DNA of 64,000 bases, from positions 372,001 through 436,000 of the forward strand of contig NZ_QKOB01000003.1 in the NCBI RefSeq assembly GCF_003226535.1. Direction: 5' to 3'. Positions 33,309-39,220 of the stretch are shown piece by piece. This DNA comes from Meiothermus sp. Pnk-1. GTDB taxonomy: Bacteria > Deinococcota > Deinococci > Deinococcales > Thermaceae. Positions within the stretch are counted from its first letter, which is position 1. Every line of letters begins with the position of its first letter. The translations under genes and the position numbers were made by a program. The notes beneath the pieces were generated by a model. It made no database searches, was not told the origin of the DNA, and worked only from the letters and a program-made list of their open reading frames with translations.

Positions 33309-36023
33309 ATGCGACCTCTCCGACTCCGTGTAGAAGGCTTTGGGGCTTACCTCGAGCCGCAGGAAATCCTCTTTGACGAGGTGGAACTATTCGCCATCAC
33401 CGGCCCCACCGGCTCGGGCAAAAGTACCCTTTTGGACGCGATCACCTACGCCCTCTACAAGCAGACCCCGCGCATCGGGGCCAAGGGATTTTCCGAACTC
33501 AGGCATCCCGGCGCGGCCCATACCCGGGTCGAGCTCGAGTTCGGCGTGGCCGAGCAGGTCTGGCGGGTGGTGCGGGTGCTGGGCAAGGACAACCAGCACC
33601 GGCTCGAGTACCTCCAGGATGGGACTTGGCGGGTGCACCTTTCCTCTGAGAAGGCCAAGACCTTAGATGCCCAGATCGCCCATCTGCTCGGCATGGACTA
33701 CGACACCTTCACCCGTGCCATTTTGCTGCCGCAGGGCCAGTTCGACCTCTTTTTACGCGGGGCAGCCAAGGACCGCCGCGAGACCCTGATCAAGCTCTAC
33801 GGCCTGGAGCGCCTCAAGGCGATGCGCGAGCGGGTGGGCGAGCACCTGCGGGAGGCTCGGGAAAGGCTGAAGCTGCTGGAAGGAGAGCTTCTGGCTCTAG
33901 AAGAGGCCGAGGAAGGTCGGCTCGAGGCCTTGCGCGAAGAGATCGAAAAGCTCAGGCGCGAAGAGGGCTCCCTCGAGGCCCAGGTGGCCCAGGCCGAGCG
34001 CGACCTAAAGCGGCGTGAGGAACTGGCCCAGAAGTTCGAGGAGTGGGAGCGCATGCAGCGCACCCTGAAGCGCCTGGAGGTCGAAGCGACGGATCTTGCT
34101 CAGTTCAAGCTCCGGCTCGAGCGGGCCCAAGCCGCGGAGCGGGTGTTGCCCCAGGTGGAAGCCTTCGAGGCTGCCCAGCGCGAGGCCCACCAAGCGAGAA
34201 CTCACGCCGATCGGGCACGCTCCGAGGCTGAGCGCTTGCAGGCCGAACTCAGCCGCCTCGAGGCCGGCTACGACCTGGCCGCGCTCGAGGCGGCCAAGGC
34301 CGAACTGGCCCGGCTCCCGCTGCTCGAGGCGTGGGAAAAATCGCTCATGCGCCACGGCGGAAACCTGAACCTCCGGCATCCTGCCCCCCTATCTTTCGAT
34401 GAAGACCGGCTCAAAGCGATAGGAGAAGCCGAGCGCGCCTGGGGGGAGGTGGAAAAGCTCGAGGGGCGGCTGGCTCAACTCGAGGGTGAGCTCGCCCAAG
34501 AGCAAGCCCGTCTGCGCAGACGCCAAGCGGAGCGGGACGGGCTCGAGCGGGAGCTGGAGCGCCTCAAGGCCTTGGGACAGGAGGCGGCCAAGGTTCACGA
34601 GGCCGCCAAGGCAGCCTTCGAAGCGGCGCAGCAAAAGGCCGGGGTGCTGCTCCACCGGCACCTGCTTCGCGCGGGAGAGCCCTGCCCGTTGTGTGCGCAG
34701 CCGGTGGCGGCGCTCCCCCCCGAGGCCCCCCTTCCGGATCTGGAGGGGTTGCGGCTCGAGCTAGCCCGTACCGACCAGCAGTTGCAAGAGCTGCGCGGCG
34801 CTTACCAGGAGAAGCGCGGCTCGCTCAAGGCCCTTAGCGAGAGCCTGCCCGAGGAAGCGCAGCGGCTCGCGGCCCGCCAGCAGGAGCGGGACAAGTTGGC
34901 GGGGGAAGTGCAGCAGCTCAAAGCCGGGCTCTTCGGTTCGCCGGAGTCGCTCGCGGAGGAACGGGTGCGGATGCTGGCCGGGTTGGCCGCCCAACTCCGG
35001 GCCGCGACCGGCGGGGAGGCGGTAGGCCGCTTCAAAGCCGCGTTGCAGAAGAAGGCCTCCGACCTCGAGGCCACCAGAAGCCGCCTGGAAGAGGCCGAGC
35101 AGCGCCTGGCCGAAGCCCAGCGCAAACACCTGGCCGCCGAGGAGGCCGCCAAAGCCGCCGAAAGCGGGCTGGCTCGGCTTGAGCAAAGCCTCTCGATCTC
35201 GCTGCGAAACGCCGGGTTTACCGGTCCTGACGAGGTACGTAAAGCCCAGCTGAGCCCGGCGGAGCGTGACTCGCTAACCCAGCGCATCGAGAGCCACCAG
35301 AAGGACAAAGAATACGCGACCAAGCGGCTCGAGGTGCTCACTGCCGAACTCATCGGGCAGCCGCTGGTGGGGCCGGAGGCGGTGCGGGAGGCGAAGGGCA
35401 GGCTGGACGAGCTGCGCGCGCGGGCCAAGGAGGTCCACGGGCGGCGGGTGGGGCTCGAGGGCGATCTGGATCGGCTGGAAGGGCAGCTCAAGCGCAAACG
35501 CGAGATCCAAGGCGAACAGGCCAAGCTAAGCCAATCCGTAGATCTATGGGAACGCTTGGCCCGGGACCTGCAAGGTGACCGCTTTCAGGATTATCTGCTC
35601 GAGCGCTACCAGACCGGGCTCTTGCAGCGGGCCACCGAGCTGATGGGCGAACTCTCCGGCGGGCGTTACCGCTTCTGCTTGGATGGGGGGGAGTACGCGG
35701 TGGAAGACCGCTGGATACATGCCGTCCGCCCGGTGCGCACCCTCTCCGGCGGGGAGAGCTTTTTGGCCTCGTTGTCGCTGGCGTTGTCGCTCTCGGAACA
35801 CCTCTCGCGGGGTAGGATCGGGGCGCTATTCCTCGATGAAGGCTTTGGAACGCTGGACGCCGAGACGTTGGAACAAGTAGCCGGGGTTTTAGAAGCCTTG
35901 CCCACCCGAGGCCGCCTGGTGGGGATCGTCACCCATGTCGAAGCCCTAGCCGAGCGGCTCCCGGCCCGGTTGGTGGTGGACAAGCACCCTTCGGGGAGTC
36001 GGTTGCGCTGGCTCGAGCGTTAA
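33309..36023 (+). CDS. sbcC: Exonuclease SbcCD subunit C (SMC-like ATPase)
   Basis: 904 residues. N-terminal Walker A GPTGSGKST (32-40), a long coiled coil (about 165-445) rich in RLEALREEIEKLRREEG-type heptads, zinc hook C459-P-L-C462, a return coil (to about 745), then the signature LSGGESFLASLSLALSLSE and Walker B GALFLDEGFGTLD. Two molecules join by the hook to form the Rad50-like clamp. AAAGGAGAT precedes the ATG. A break in the coil near residues 342-362 (SLMRHGGNLNLRHPAPLSFDE) looks like a small inserted segment, sited before the hook. Confidence 0.95.
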   Translation: MRPLRLRVEGFGAYLEPQEILFDEVELFAITGPTGSGKSTLLDAITYALYKQTPRIGAKGFSELRHPGAAHTRVELEFGVAEQVWRVVRVLGKDNQHRLEYLQDGTWRVHLSSEKAKTLDAQIAHLLGMDYDTFTRAILLPQGQFDLFLRGAAKDRRETLIKLYGLERLKAMRERVGEHLREARERLKLLEGELLALEEAEEGRLEALREEIEKLRREEGSLEAQVAQAERDLKRREELAQKFEEWERMQRTLKRLEVEATDLAQFKLRLERAQAAERVLPQVEAFEAAQREAHQARTHADRARSEAERLQAELSRLEAGYDLAALEAAKAELARLPLLEAWEKSLMRHGGNLNLRHPAPLSFDEDRLKAIGEAERAWGEVEKLEGRLAQLEGELAQEQARLRRRQAERDGLERELERLKALGQEAAKVHEAAKAAFEAAQQKAGVLLHRHLLRAGEPCPLCAQPVAALPPEAPLPDLEGLRLELARTDQQLQELRGAYQEKRGSLKALSESLPEEAQRLAARQQERDKLAGEVQQLKAGLFGSPESLAEERVRMLAGLAAQLRAATGGEAVGRFKAALQKKASDLEATRSRLEEAEQRLAEAQRKHLAAEEAAKAAESGLARLEQSLSISLRNAGFTGPDEVRKAQLSPAERDSLTQRIESHQKDKEYATKRLEVLTAELIGQPLVGPEAVREAKGRLDELRARAKEVHGRRVGLEGDLDRLEGQLKRKREIQGEQAKLSQSVDLWERLARDLQGDRFQDYLLERYQTGLLQRATELMGELSGGRYRFCLDGGEYAVEDRWIHAVRPVRTLSGGESFLASLSLALSLSEHLSRGRIGALFLDEGFGTLDAETLEQVAGVLEALPTRGRLVGIVTHVEALAERLPARLVVDKHPSGSRLRWLER

Positions 36024-36343
36024 GCCACCCCTCGCTTTGCTCGGCGAAAATACGCCACCCCACGGCTTGCGCCGAAACAAGCGTCTCGCTACCCCGCCTA
36101 CCGGCGGTGAAAGAGGCGTCTCGCTCGGCGAAAATACGCCACCCCTCGCTTCGCTCGGCGAAAATACGCCTCTCGAGGTACAGCTTGGGCTCGCGCTGGG
36201 GGGCGGGTATGCTGTAGGTCGTTTGGCTCTTGGGGTATGAAGGGGAATCCGCTTGATCCGTCCTTATTGTTGGGGCCCCCCACAGGGGGCGTAACCGATA
36301 GGCCTTGGCTTGCATTTGGCGGAACGCCTCGGGCGGGGTTCGC
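36024..36343. repeat. Gene-free gap with inverted GCCGAGCGAAGCGAG modules
   Basis: 320 bases without a gene. Three copies of CTCGCTT(C/T)GCTCGGCGAAAATACGCC lie at about 36030-36055, 36118-36142 and 36146-36172, with CACGGCTTGCGCCGAAACAAGCGTCTCG (split over 36060-36090) and the CCGCCTACCGGCGG linker. These are reverse complements of modules at 9500-9630. From 36180 to 36343 I see no repeat and only a weak GGCGGGG before the murJ start. Confidence 0.7.
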
Positions 36344-37822
36344 ATGACCCGTATTTTTCGTAACTCCGTGGTGGTCATGATCGGCACCCTAGCCAGCCGG
36401 CTGCTGGGGGTATTGCGCCAGATCGTCTTCAATAACGCCTACGCCTCGGATACCCTCAAGGACGCTTTCAACGTGGCCTACCGGGTGCCTAACCTCTTCC
36501 GCGAGCTGCTGGCCGAGGGCGGGGTGCAAAACGCCCTGATCCCGGTGCTCAAATCCTTGCCCGACGCGGAGGTTCCGGTGTTCGCCCGCCGCTTCGGGGC
36601 CTTGTTGCTGGGGCTCAACCTGGCGGTGATCGGGCTGTGCTGGGCGGCGGCCCCTTGGCTGGCCGGGCTCCTGATCTCGCCGGGCAGCCCCCACCTGCGA
36701 GAGCCGCAGAACTTCCAGACGGTGGTGCTCCTGATGCGGCTGGCTTTGCCCTTCCTGCTGGGCATCTCGATGTCGGCCCTGTTCACCGCGCTCCTCCAGG
36801 CCGACGAGCGCTTCGGGGCCAGCAGCTTCAGCCCCTTGGCTTTCAACCTGGGCTCGATGGCCTTGATGCTCCTGTGGCCCGGCGACCCGGTGATGCTGGG
36901 GCTCTCGGTCACGGTAGGGGGATTCTTGCAGGCATTGGTGCAGCTTCCTTACCTGCGGGGGTTTGGCCTCGAGTTCAGGCCCCACCCCGCTCTTGGGCGC
37001 GCTCTGGCCCGGATGGGTCCTTTTGTCTTCACCACCTCCACCCGCCAGGTTCTGAACTTGGTGTTGGTGAATATCCTGACCTTTTACCCGCAAGCTACCG
37101 TGACCGGTTTTTACAACGCCGAGCTGGTCTACCTCACCGCTTTGGGGGTACTGGCGGTTTCCCCGGCGATGGCCGCGTATCCCCGCATGTCCGAGCTATA
37201 TGCCAAAGGAGACCTTCCCGGCTTCAACCGCCTCCTTGAGGGGATGATCGCTCGGGTAGCGGTTCTGCTAGGGCTGGCCTCTGCGCTGATGGGTTGGTTG
37301 GCTCCTTGGCTGGCCTCGGTTTTCGCCTGGACCGCGAACTTCACCCAGGCCAACCGCGAGCTCACCACCCTCTTCCTGCTCACTTTCAGTTTTTCCCTCC
37401 TCCCCTGGGGCCTCAACGCCCTCTTGGTGCGAGGGTTCTATGCGGTAGGGGAAGTCCAGCGGGCGGTGCGCATCTCGGTGCTGGTGGTGCTCTTGAACAC
37501 CCTGGGCTACTGGCTCCTCAAAGGGCAAAGCCTCTATCTGCTCAACGCCGCGACGGTATTGGCCGGTTTGGTCGGGATGCTACTCTACGCCCGCCGATTA
37601 GGAATTTTTGGGCATTTGCGCCTGGGCTGGTTGGTTTTTCTGCTGGCCCGGGTGGGCCTCGCAGCCCTCATCTCGGGAGCTCCGGCCTACTTCGTGGCCC
37701 GCCTCTTCGGGCCGCCGCAGAATTTTTTTCACGACCTCCCGGCCTTGGTCGTAGCCGGGGGGGTGGGGCTTTTGGTGTATGTGGGGGTGGCTCGAGCCCT
37801 GCGGCTGTCGCTCAGGGGGTGA
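36344..37822 (+). CDS. murJ: Lipid II flippase MurJ/MviN
   Basis: 492 residues with about 14 hydrophobic segments of the MOP superfamily. Conserved N-terminal region: MIGTLASRLLGVLRQIVFNNAYASDTLKDAFNVAYRVPNLFRELLAEGGVQNALIPV. The Arg residues in SRLLGVLR and YRVPNLFRELLAEG line the substrate cavity in known structures. It moves lipid II to the outer leaflet for peptidoglycan synthesis. The start at ATG 36344 keeps the conserved MTRIFRNS start; the longer frame upstream is intergenic. Its end overlaps the convergent aspS gene by 11 bases. Confidence 0.92.
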   Translation: MTRIFRNSVVVMIGTLASRLLGVLRQIVFNNAYASDTLKDAFNVAYRVPNLFRELLAEGGVQNALIPVLKSLPDAEVPVFARRFGALLLGLNLAVIGLCWAAAPWLAGLLISPGSPHLREPQNFQTVVLLMRLALPFLLGISMSALFTALLQADERFGASSFSPLAFNLGSMALMLLWPGDPVMLGLSVTVGGFLQALVQLPYLRGFGLEFRPHPALGRALARMGPFVFTTSTRQVLNLVLVNILTFYPQATVTGFYNAELVYLTALGVLAVSPAMAAYPRMSELYAKGDLPGFNRLLEGMIARVAVLLGLASALMGWLAPWLASVFAWTANFTQANRELTTLFLLTFSFSLLPWGLNALLVRGFYAVGEVQRAVRISVLVVLLNTLGYWLLKGQSLYLLNAATVLAGLVGMLLYARRLGIFGHLRLGWLVFLLARVGLAALISGAPAYFVARLFGPPQNFFHDLPALVVAGGVGLLVYVGVARALRLSLRG

Positions 37823-39083
37823 GCCGGTGGCGGTCGCGGGGGAAGGCCCGCGCATAGCGCACGTTGGGCAACCCCAAGAGCTTCTGGGTGAGCCGTTCCG
37901 CCCCGATGGCGAACCCGCCGTGGGGGGGCATCCCGTACTTGAACACCTCCAAGTAGCCTGTGAAGTTCGCCGGGTCGTTGCCTTTTTTCCTTAGTTGCTC
38001 GACCAAAACCTCGTACTGGTGCACCCGCTGCCCACCCGAGGTGATCTCCAGCCCGCGGAATAACAGGTCGAAGCCCCGCGTCACCCCGTTTCCCTCGGGG
38101 TAGGCGTAAAAGGGTCGGGCCACTTCGGGGTACTTGGTGACGAAGAGGAAGTCCACCCCCCACCGCTCCTTGGCGTAAGCCCCCAACGCCCGCTCGGCCT
38201 CCTCGTTGAAATCCTGGCCAACCGGCATAGAAAGCTCTTCGCGCAGGATGCGCCGAGCTTCGGCGTGAGAGAGCCGGGGCATCTCTTGGGTGTTGGGCCA
38301 CTCCACCTCGAGCATCGCCAGCTGCTTGGGCGTAGCCTGCCGGGCCTCCTCGAGCATGGCCCGCAGCAGGTTCTCCTCGAGGTCGATAACCTCGAACTCG
38401 TCTTGGATGAAGCCCATCTCCACGTCGAGCGACAGATATTCGTTCAGGTGGCGGCTGGTGGCGTGCTCTTCGGCGCGGAAGACCGGGGCCACCTCGTAGA
38501 CCCGCTCGTAGACCCCCACCATGATCTGCTTGTAGAGCTGGGGCGATTGGGCTAGGTAGGCCCGTTTCTCGAAGTAATCCACCCCGAAGAGGTTACTCCC
38601 CCCCTCGGCCCCCGCCGAGACGATCTTGGGGGTGTAGATCTCGGTGAACCCTTGCGCATCCAAGTAGTTGCGGAAACCGCGCACCAAGGCCGCCTGCACC
38701 TTTAGGGCGGCCCGGGCTTTCTCCCCCCGCAAGCTCACGTAGCGGTACTCGAGTAGGGTCTCTGGGTTGACCCGCCACTCTTCCTTGGGGATCTCGATGG
38801 GGGAGGGCTCGAGGGCCGCCGACACCACTTCGATCCCGTTGGCCAGCACCTCATAGCCGCCGGGGGCTTTGGCGTTTTCCACCACCTTGCCCGTTACCCG
38901 TAGGCTCGACTCGGCCAGGGGGAGGTTCACCCCCTTCTCCACCACTACTTGCACGATCCCGCTGCGGTCACGCAGGAGGGCGAACTGGATGCCCCCCAGG
39001 TCGCGCTTCCAGTGCAAAAAGCCCAGCAGGCTAACCTGCTCCCCGACGTGATGGGGTACTTCGCTTGCCAGTACTCTCGACAT
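37812..39083 (-). CDS. aspS2: Aspartyl-tRNA synthetase, archaeal type (AspRS2, probably non-discriminating)
   Basis: 423 residues, about 160 shorter than bacterial AspRS because the GAD insertion domain is missing. An N-terminal OB fold (about 10-95) precedes the class II catalytic core, with motif 2 FRAEEHATSRHLNEYLSLDVEMGF and motif 3 GGFAIGAERL. Thermus has a comparable AspRS2 of about 422 residues that also charges tRNA-Asn, the Asp being amidated by GatCAB. GATGAGGAG lies eight bases before the ATG; an upstream ATG (39096-39098) overlaps that signal. The promoter and an attenuator-like leader precede it. Confidence 0.93.
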   Translation of the reverse strand: MSRVLASEVPHHVGEQVSLLGFLHWKRDLGGIQFALLRDRSGIVQVVVEKGVNLPLAESSLRVTGKVVENAKAPGGYEVLANGIEVVSAALEPSPIEIPKEEWRVNPETLLEYRYVSLRGEKARAALKVQAALVRGFRNYLDAQGFTEIYTPKIVSAGAEGGSNLFGVDYFEKRAYLAQSPQLYKQIMVGVYERVYEVAPVFRAEEHATSRHLNEYLSLDVEMGFIQDEFEVIDLEENLLRAMLEEARQATPKQLAMLEVEWPNTQEMPRLSHAEARRILREELSMPVGQDFNEEAERALGAYAKERWGVDFLFVTKYPEVARPFYAYPEGNGVTRGFDLLFRGLEITSGGQRVHQYEVLVEQLRKKGNDPANFTGYLEVFKYGMPPHGGFAIGAERLTQKLLGLPNVRYARAFPRDRHRLTP

Positions 39084-39104
39084 CGCTTTGCTCCTCATCG
39101 AAAA

Positions 39105-39132
39105 CCCCCCGGCGCAAGGGCGGGCCGGGGGG
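39105..39132 (-). terminator. Attenuator terminator hairpin in the aspS2 leader
   Basis: Minus strand: CCCCCCGGC (39124-39132) pairs perfectly with GCCGGGGGG (39105-39113) around a ten-base loop, and TTTT (39101-39104) follows. It lies just before the aspS2 Shine-Dalgarno and after a tiny ORF. Confidence 0.75.
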
Positions 39133-39150
39133 CGTTTGCCTATTCCCCCG
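39126..39150 (-). promoter_or_regulatory. Competing antiterminator pairing
   Basis: CGGGGG (39145-39150), directly after the leader stop codon, is complementary to CCCCCG (39126-39131), the first arm of the terminator. The two pairings exclude each other. Confidence 0.6.
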
Positions 39151-39151
39151 C

Positions 39152-39181
39152 TTAGGAATTGTCGTCCCTACGACCCCACAT
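39152..39181 (-). CDS. aspS2 leader peptide MWGRRDDNS
   Basis: Nine codons, ATG 39179-39181 to TAA 39152-39154, beginning ten bases after the promoter -10 box, so almost at the 5' end of the RNA. Codons 6-8 are GAC GAC AAT: two Asp and one Asn, exactly the amino acids whose tRNAs a non-discriminating AspRS charges. Ribosome stalling there would leave the antiterminator arm at 39145-39150 free. Confidence 0.65.
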   Translation of the reverse strand: MWGRRDDNS

Positions 39182-39191
39182 CTTGCTAGAG

Positions 39192-39220
39192 AGTCTACGG
39201 GCAGGCTTCCTCCGGGTCAA
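39192..39220 (-). promoter_or_regulatory. aspS2 promoter
   Basis: Minus strand: -35 TTGACC (39215-39220), 17-base spacer, -10 TAGACT (39192-39197). The -35 overlaps the stop codon of tatD. The expected start near 39185 gives a leader of about 100 bases. Confidence 0.7.

Follow-up and report, generated by a model that had tools for sequence, protein, structure and literature searches.

The leader upstream of aspS2 in Meiothermus sp. Pnk-1, the gene of an archaeal-type non-discriminating aspartyl-tRNA synthetase (AspRS2), is in all likelihood a ribosome-mediated transcription attenuator which works, via a tRNA synthetase, as an attenuator of asparagine biosynthesis. It is very probably a switch that would raise AspRS2 when charged Asn- or Asp-tRNA becomes scarce. 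The analysis established the architecture of the leader, the conservation of its codons and pairings, the enzyme type and the gene inventory.

Architecture of the aspS2 leader in Meiothermus sp. Pnk-1

In the window, which is the whole stretch of 64,000 nucleotides that was analysed, aspS2 is located on the minus strand and its upstream neighbour on the same strand is a gene for a TatD-family nuclease (tatD). The following parts were assigned:

39215..39220, minus strand: -35 hexamer TTGACC, overlapping the stop codon of the upstream tatD
39192..39197, minus strand: -10 hexamer TAGACT, 17-nt spacer to the -35 hexamer
39152..39181, minus strand: leader mini-ORF MWGRRDDNS with TAA, its ATG at 39181, 10 nt past the -10 hexamer
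39158..39166, minus strand: putative control codons GAC GAC AAT (Asp Asp Asn; GAC 39166-39164, GAC 39163-39161, AAT 39160-39158)
39154-39152, minus strand: mini-ORF stop TAA
39145..39150, minus strand: antiterminator strand CGGGGG, immediately 3' of the mini-ORF stop
39124..39132, minus strand: shared C arm CCCCCCGGC, terminator 5' arm; its C-run CCCCCG (39131-39126) also pairs with the antiterminator strand
39105..39113, minus strand: terminator 3' arm GCCGGGGGG, nine-pair stem with CCCCCCGGC
39101..39104, minus strand: terminator U-tract TTTT
39091..39096, minus strand: aspS2 Shine-Dalgarno sequence GAGGAG
37812..39083, minus strand: aspS2, archaeal-type non-discriminating aspartate--tRNA(Asp/Asn) ligase of 423 aa (NCBIfam PRK05159, E=2.8e-168; TIGR00458 aspS_nondisc)

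The original prediction had placed the promoter, MWGRRDDNS with its codons GAC GAC AAT, the two pairing partners CGGGGG and CCCCCG, the stem and TTTT at this locus, and all of them were found at the positions it gave. TTGACC and TAGACT constitute the only promoter-like match in the 4 kb scanned. The mini-ORF is predicted to be near-leaderless with a transcript start at about 39184-39187. For aspS2 itself the ATG at 39083 behind GAGGAG was taken as start, a longer ORF from 39098 being unnecessary. The assignment of the enzyme to the AspRS2 type agrees with the curated family models of the non-discriminating AspRS (PRK05159, TIGR00458), the match to TIGR00458 aspS_nondisc reaching 402 bits in comparison to a cut-off of 368.4.

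The folding of the single Meiothermus sp. Pnk-1 leader is unexceptional (z = -0.16), and thus the case for the leader rests on the comparison with its relatives, in which the conservation greatly exceeds what chance would produce. An Rfam search of the window gave nothing at the gathering score and chance matches only below it, and the T-box model (Rfam RF00230) had no match at this aspS2 leader.

Conservation of the leader across the order

A common layout was detected in 88 of 89 aspS2 upstream regions from five families (referred to as f1 to f5), while the gene located upstream changes. Its recurring order comprises a promoter, a near-leaderless mini-ORF of 7-37 codons, a cluster of Asp/Asn codons, a stop, an antiterminator strand and a hairpin. 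All 50 Thermaceae genomes searched encode AspRS2. The Thermaceae series is present throughout (50/50) and consists of TTGAC(C), 17 nt, TAnnnT, 7-10 nt, ATG, 7-10 codons and the stop, which is followed, likewise in 50/50, by a G-run at 0-4 nt, a short spacer and the hairpin of a C-run and a G-run. The -35 hexamer and the spacing are identical in nearly all aspS2 upstream regions of the Thermaceae. Mini-ORF, its spacing from the -10 hexamer and the position of its stop are conserved, and the identity of the stop codon varies.

Beyond the Thermaceae the leader was identified in ten genomes of f4, three of f3, one of the two of f2 and 24 of the Trueperaceae-like f5. Two f5 regions (L124, L138) are located at contig ends and display only the Asp/Asn codons, the stop and the hairpins. 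In one f2 region (L115) no leader was found upstream of aspS2, the sole exception among the 89 regions. The mini-ORFs of f5 and f2 are longer (17-37 codons) and their antiterminator strand lies mostly within the last codons; a terminating ribosome would therefore still cover this strand. A phylum-wide search for Deinococcaceae added no genomes to the 111 of the class.

A covariance model derived from 57 leaders had its top match at the aspS2 leader in 50 of 50 Thermaceae genomes, with E-values between 8.6e-6 and 2.7e-17 and 1e-3 for the best other match; only aspS2 stood out when this model was used to search the Thermaceae genomes for copies elsewhere.

The overlap of the promoter with the tatD stop in Meiothermus sp. 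Pnk-1 might suggest that the hairpin serves only to terminate tatD and that the mini-ORF occurs by chance. We consider this next to impossible and rejected it, since the upstream gene changes between genomes while the spacing of promoter, ORF and hairpin is fixed: tatD adjoins in some Thermaceae genomes, lies several hundred bases off in others or is not found within the stretch.

Asp and Asn codons in the mini-ORF

Asn is present in 85 of the 86 parsed leaders, the exception (L129) has Asp, and all of them contain Asp or Asn. The tiny ORF and its Asp/Asn codons are hence kept in the orthologues (88 of the 89 regions), as the original prediction implied. In the 86 parsed leaders Asn is encoded by AAT (76) and AAC (62), Asp by GAC (78) and GAT (29), and the ORF ends with TAG (50), TAA (25) or TGA (11). 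The order of both residues varies as well (DDN, DNN, NDN, NND, NN, ND). Since codons, stops and order vary, it is the residues that are conserved and not a nucleotide motif.

Asn accounts for about 19% of the residues in the leaders of Thermus and of the Meiothermus-like group compared to 1.6% in long Thermus ORFs. The share of Asp and Asn together amounts to 24-38% in the Thermus, Meiothermus-like and f4 leaders and to 18% in f5, compared to 5.5% in long Thermus ORFs. Furthermore, in 63 of 64 leaders outside f5 the first base of an Asp or Asn codon is 12-17 nt away from the antiterminator G-run downstream; the exception is L040 with Asn at 11 nt. Several Meiothermus-like leaders have an Asn codon at 9-11 nt, so close that a ribosome stalled on it would partly hide the G-run, which counts against the attenuator model; the 12-17 nt slot is filled by Asp in these leaders.

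Sensing of both Asp and Asn had been proposed for the leader. Asp or Asn does occur in every parsed leader, but many leaders of Thermus have no Asp. Asn is the most constant residue, and Asp is best read as a second input.

Judged by its geometry, the leader would answer any stall 5' of the stop, and it could thus sense translation in general, i.e. ribosome supply or initiation, with the Asp/Asn codons being incidental. This seems extremely improbable, since the enrichment and the position of Asp/Asn are kept in five families despite changes in codon and order, and since the leaders of leuS, ilvB, trpE and hcs (see below) each contain codons for the amino acid that the gene serves.

Two mutually exclusive pairings

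In f1 and f4 the core of the antiterminator consists of invariant G:C pairs and hence displays little covariation. By eye, the flanking pairs in these families vary in step (GGGGGAA/TTCCCCC, GGGGGAG/CTCCCCC, CGGA/TCCG, CGAG/CTCG). Across lineages the pairs differ more, as in CTCGGGG/CCCCGAG, GCTTCGGG/CCCGAAGC, TTGGGGT/ACCCCAA and CGGGGC/GCCCCG.

In a swap test with 30 distinct terminator arms the match of the leader's own antiterminator beat the permuted ones (p=5e-5, uncorrected for relatedness), and the same result was obtained with the 16 arms of f2, f3 and f5, again uncorrected for relatedness. The alignment of f5 contains 96.4% paired cells, four cells being changed on both sides, and its covariation score was reached by none of 500 shuffles, which do not correct for relatedness either. 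When the f5 partner is shifted along the alignment, fewer cells are paired and the covariation score drops. Single-sequence shuffles of the leaders were mostly non-significant. Taking together the swap test and the pair counts of f5, the two exclusive pairings that had been postulated for Meiothermus sp. Pnk-1 are conserved in the orthologues.

The comparison with trp and his that had been drawn applies to the control codons and the exclusive antiterminator and terminator, but not to a 1:2 hairpin of the trp type: none is conserved, and the consensus fold contains only the terminator stem. A local GTCGT/ACGAC hairpin of the Meiothermus sp. Pnk-1 leader is absent from its sister L002.

At 60 C the energies calculated for the Meiothermus sp. 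Pnk-1 leader are -7.3 kcal/mol for the antiterminator window and -16.2 kcal/mol for the terminator, and the antiterminator window alone reaches about -7 to -13 kcal/mol in examples from f1-f4. For the ribosome a footprint of about 12 nt was assumed, counted from the first base of the A-site codon. With the A site on a codon in the 12-17 nt slot the G-run would lie just outside this footprint, and with the stop in the A site it would be covered. For a ribosome at the stop, the RNA left folds only the terminator. These stem energies fit a kinetic switch.

Alternatively, AspRS2 or another protein may bind the leader RNA directly, an autoregulation that is known for synthetase genes and is mentioned for E. 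coli thrS in PMC2965389. For the aspS2 leader this is very improbable, as its conserved elements are two simple helices and an ORF whose codons vary synonymously, and neither a tRNA-like fold nor an Rfam match was found.

Proposed mechanism of attenuation

Start of transcription, translation of the mini-ORF, termination and the response to starvation are the steps that we infer for the attenuator. The near-leaderless transcript would start only a few bases 5' of the mini-ORF, whose translation would begin immediately. In a cell well supplied with Asp-tRNA(Asp) and, most importantly, with Asn-tRNA(Asn), the ribosome would reach the stop and hide the G-run under its footprint, so that the C-run would pair with the downstream G-run and form the terminator. 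If the charged tRNA is scarce, the ribosome would presumably stall on the Asp/Asn codons, some 12-17 nt ahead of the first G-run, and leave this G-run free. It could then capture the C-run while the distal G-run has yet to be transcribed, and RNA polymerase would read into aspS2. More AspRS2 would provide more Asp-tRNA(Asn) for the amidation by GatCAB to Asn-tRNA(Asn).

The predicted switch is simpler than those of trp and his, as a ribosome at the stop that masks the antiterminator suffices. Due to the lack of a conserved 1:2 hairpin the antiterminator should form without any translation, and aspS2 should then be on. This predicted behaviour is a difference to the trp attenuator.

Extensive loss of the U-tract in Thermus

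The aspS2 leaders of Thermus (g4; L023-L049, L139) retain the promoter, the mini-ORF with its Asn codons and the two pairings. However, the intrinsic terminator with a U-tract that is present in Meiothermus sp. Pnk-1 and in most lineages is not found in Thermus: the 8 nt after the stem contain on average 2.0 T, in comparison to averages of about 4.5-5.7 in most other lineages (in g1 the extension of one stem through its U-tract lowers the automatic count). The majority of the Meiothermus-like, f4 and f5 leaders have 4-6 T at these 8 nt. Intrinsic termination is therefore doubtful in Thermus, and the aspS2 switch may act differently there.

In Thermus, and perhaps generally, the leader might act on translation, on pausing or on Rho-dependent termination, with the distal hairpin near the Shine-Dalgarno sequence hindering initiation and the antiterminator relieving this effect. 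Such a mode would be in line with the largely lost U-tract, given that the leuS and metG leaders of Thermus retain long U-tracts, and with the hairpin ending roughly 20-25 nt before the aspS2 start codon in many genomes. It appears rather unlikely, since the U-tract is kept in Meiothermus sp. Pnk-1, in the Meiothermus-like and f4 leaders and in most of f5, and since the stem does not include the bases of the Shine-Dalgarno sequence.

AspRS2 and the tRNA-dependent formation of asparagine

Among the 111 genomes of the class AspRS1 was found in 105, AsnRS in 104 and AspRS2 in 99. The asparagine synthetase genes are rarer: asnB was detected in 34 genomes and is absent from 77, including Meiothermus sp. 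Pnk-1, and asnA is absent from all 111. In Thermus and Deinococcus a second AspRS together with GatCAB makes asparagine on the tRNA (PMC4206432). The gene inventory matches this published tRNA-dependent route, and for this reason the leader is best read as an attenuator of asparagine biosynthesis. In the stretches read, no leaders of the aspS2 kind were seen before asnS (L173) and aspS1 (L175).

For the question of how the formation of Asn-tRNA is divided between AsnRS and AspRS2/GatCAB in Thermus and its relatives, no regulatory answer was found in the literature searched. The leader offers one, in which a shortage of charged Asn-tRNA would switch on the tRNA-dependent route.

T-box leaders were detected before 8 of 11 distant bacterial relatives of AspRS2 examined, all eight being clostridial (L079, L080, L082, L085, L086, L088, L089, L100). 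For the four clostridial leaders inspected, the position in the model alignment suggests GAC (Asp) as the specifier. As in the aspS2 leader, the same enzyme type is concerned and tRNA charging is sensed; in contrast, the T-box is a structured RNA that binds the tRNA directly. The clostridial T-boxes thus indicate that sensing of the tRNA charge before an AspRS2-type enzyme was reached elsewhere by another device.

Relation to known attenuators

Leader-peptide attenuators are classically represented by trp, his and pheST of enterobacteria. The aspS2 leader resembles them in its cognate control codons, the mutually exclusive antiterminator and terminator and the intrinsic terminator, and synthetase genes are known targets of attenuators. 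In contrast to the classical ones, it has Asn/Asp codons, lies before the gene of a non-discriminating AspRS, and has a near-leaderless ORF of nine codons and no conserved 1:2 hairpin. For the lysine (hcs) cluster in Thermus thermophilus a leader-peptide attenuator was reportedly described by Tsubouchi et al. in 2005. It belongs to the same kind of device in the same group of bacteria, but uses Lys codons and controls a biosynthetic operon instead of a synthetase gene.

Attenuated synthetase genes are exemplified by trpS and leuS of Streptomyces (PMC1262725), and in the model of the ilvB1 attenuator of M. tuberculosis the antiterminator is hidden by a ribosome that has arrived at the stop (PMC13236596). 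Leaderless polycysteine ORFs of mycobacteria act as attenuators, too (Canestrari et al. 2020, cited in PMC13236596). They likewise are short leaderless ORFs with control codons, but they contain Cys codons and are described as acting by translation attenuation, in contrast to the terminator of the aspS2 leader.

Targeted searches of the openly accessible full-text literature returned nothing on an Asp/Asn attenuator or on the regulation of aspS2 in Thermus. The kind of device is known in this group, and what is new is the predicted Asn/Asp member, its target and its reach. We put forward only tentatively that it could be the first known example of an attenuator that uses Asn (and Asp) as control codons and governs a tRNA-dependent route of amino acid synthesis, that it is kept across the order as one of a set of near-leaderless mini-ORF attenuators over much of the amino acid and tRNA-charging metabolism of the Thermaceae, and that its Thermus version works in a mode without intrinsic termination. 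The leader would add Asn and Asp to the codons used by attenuators, and its compact, recognisable design offers a way to find other attenuated genes in thermophiles.

Similar leaders before other genes

A pattern search revealed a similar leader before leuS of Meiothermus sp. Pnk-1 (L174/L176, contig C15). Its ORF reads ATG AGG TTT GTG AAG CGC CTA GCG CTA GGC TAG and is followed by GGGAGC, and the terminator arm contains GCTCCCC. The analogue, comprising a near-leaderless ORF, an antiterminator right after the stop and a terminator, was found in most Thermaceae examined (L177-L205). Every correctly parsed leuS leader of the Thermaceae contains CTA, a rare codon that accounts for 2.5% of Leu codons in the long ORFs of Thermus. 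Several Thermus leaders were assigned wrongly by the automatic parse, which detected no leader in L178, L179, L183 and L189; visual inspection showed CTA in the wrongly assigned leaders and in L178 and L179, too.

One complete Thermus chromosome (G048) was scanned de novo for a near-leaderless ORF combined with an antiterminator and a terminator. Leaders were obtained for ilvB MRAGLVLSLALVLIVGPAGGRA (LVLSLALVLIV), leuC MRRAVTLVLDRAGPV, leuS, trpE MALPSALWWPG (WW), hcs MLARAKKLGRRGVG (KK), lysJ MRARGKS and metG MKGMPRS, in addition to a few without evident logic; the same scan on the reversed chromosome yielded 0 matches. The genes trpE and hcs were named from sequence and the others by NCBIfam. 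The hcs leader MLARAKKLGRRGVG, which we take to be the published lysine attenuator of T. thermophilus, serves as positive control. Since leuS, ilvB, leuC, trpE and hcs have similar leaders, the device of aspS2 is not unique to this gene.

The metG leaders of Thermus (L306-L332) have two hairpins behind a conserved mini-ORF, MKGMP, and a CCCC strand directly after the second Met codon. Their pairing logic may differ, and they may not represent a switch of the aspS2 type.

Repeats in the window

Between two large plus-strand genes, positions 36021-36170 of the window contain copies of a 36-nt repeat, TAAGCCACCCCTCGCTTTGCTCGGCGAAAATACGCC, two of which are 94-100% alike and two about 61%.
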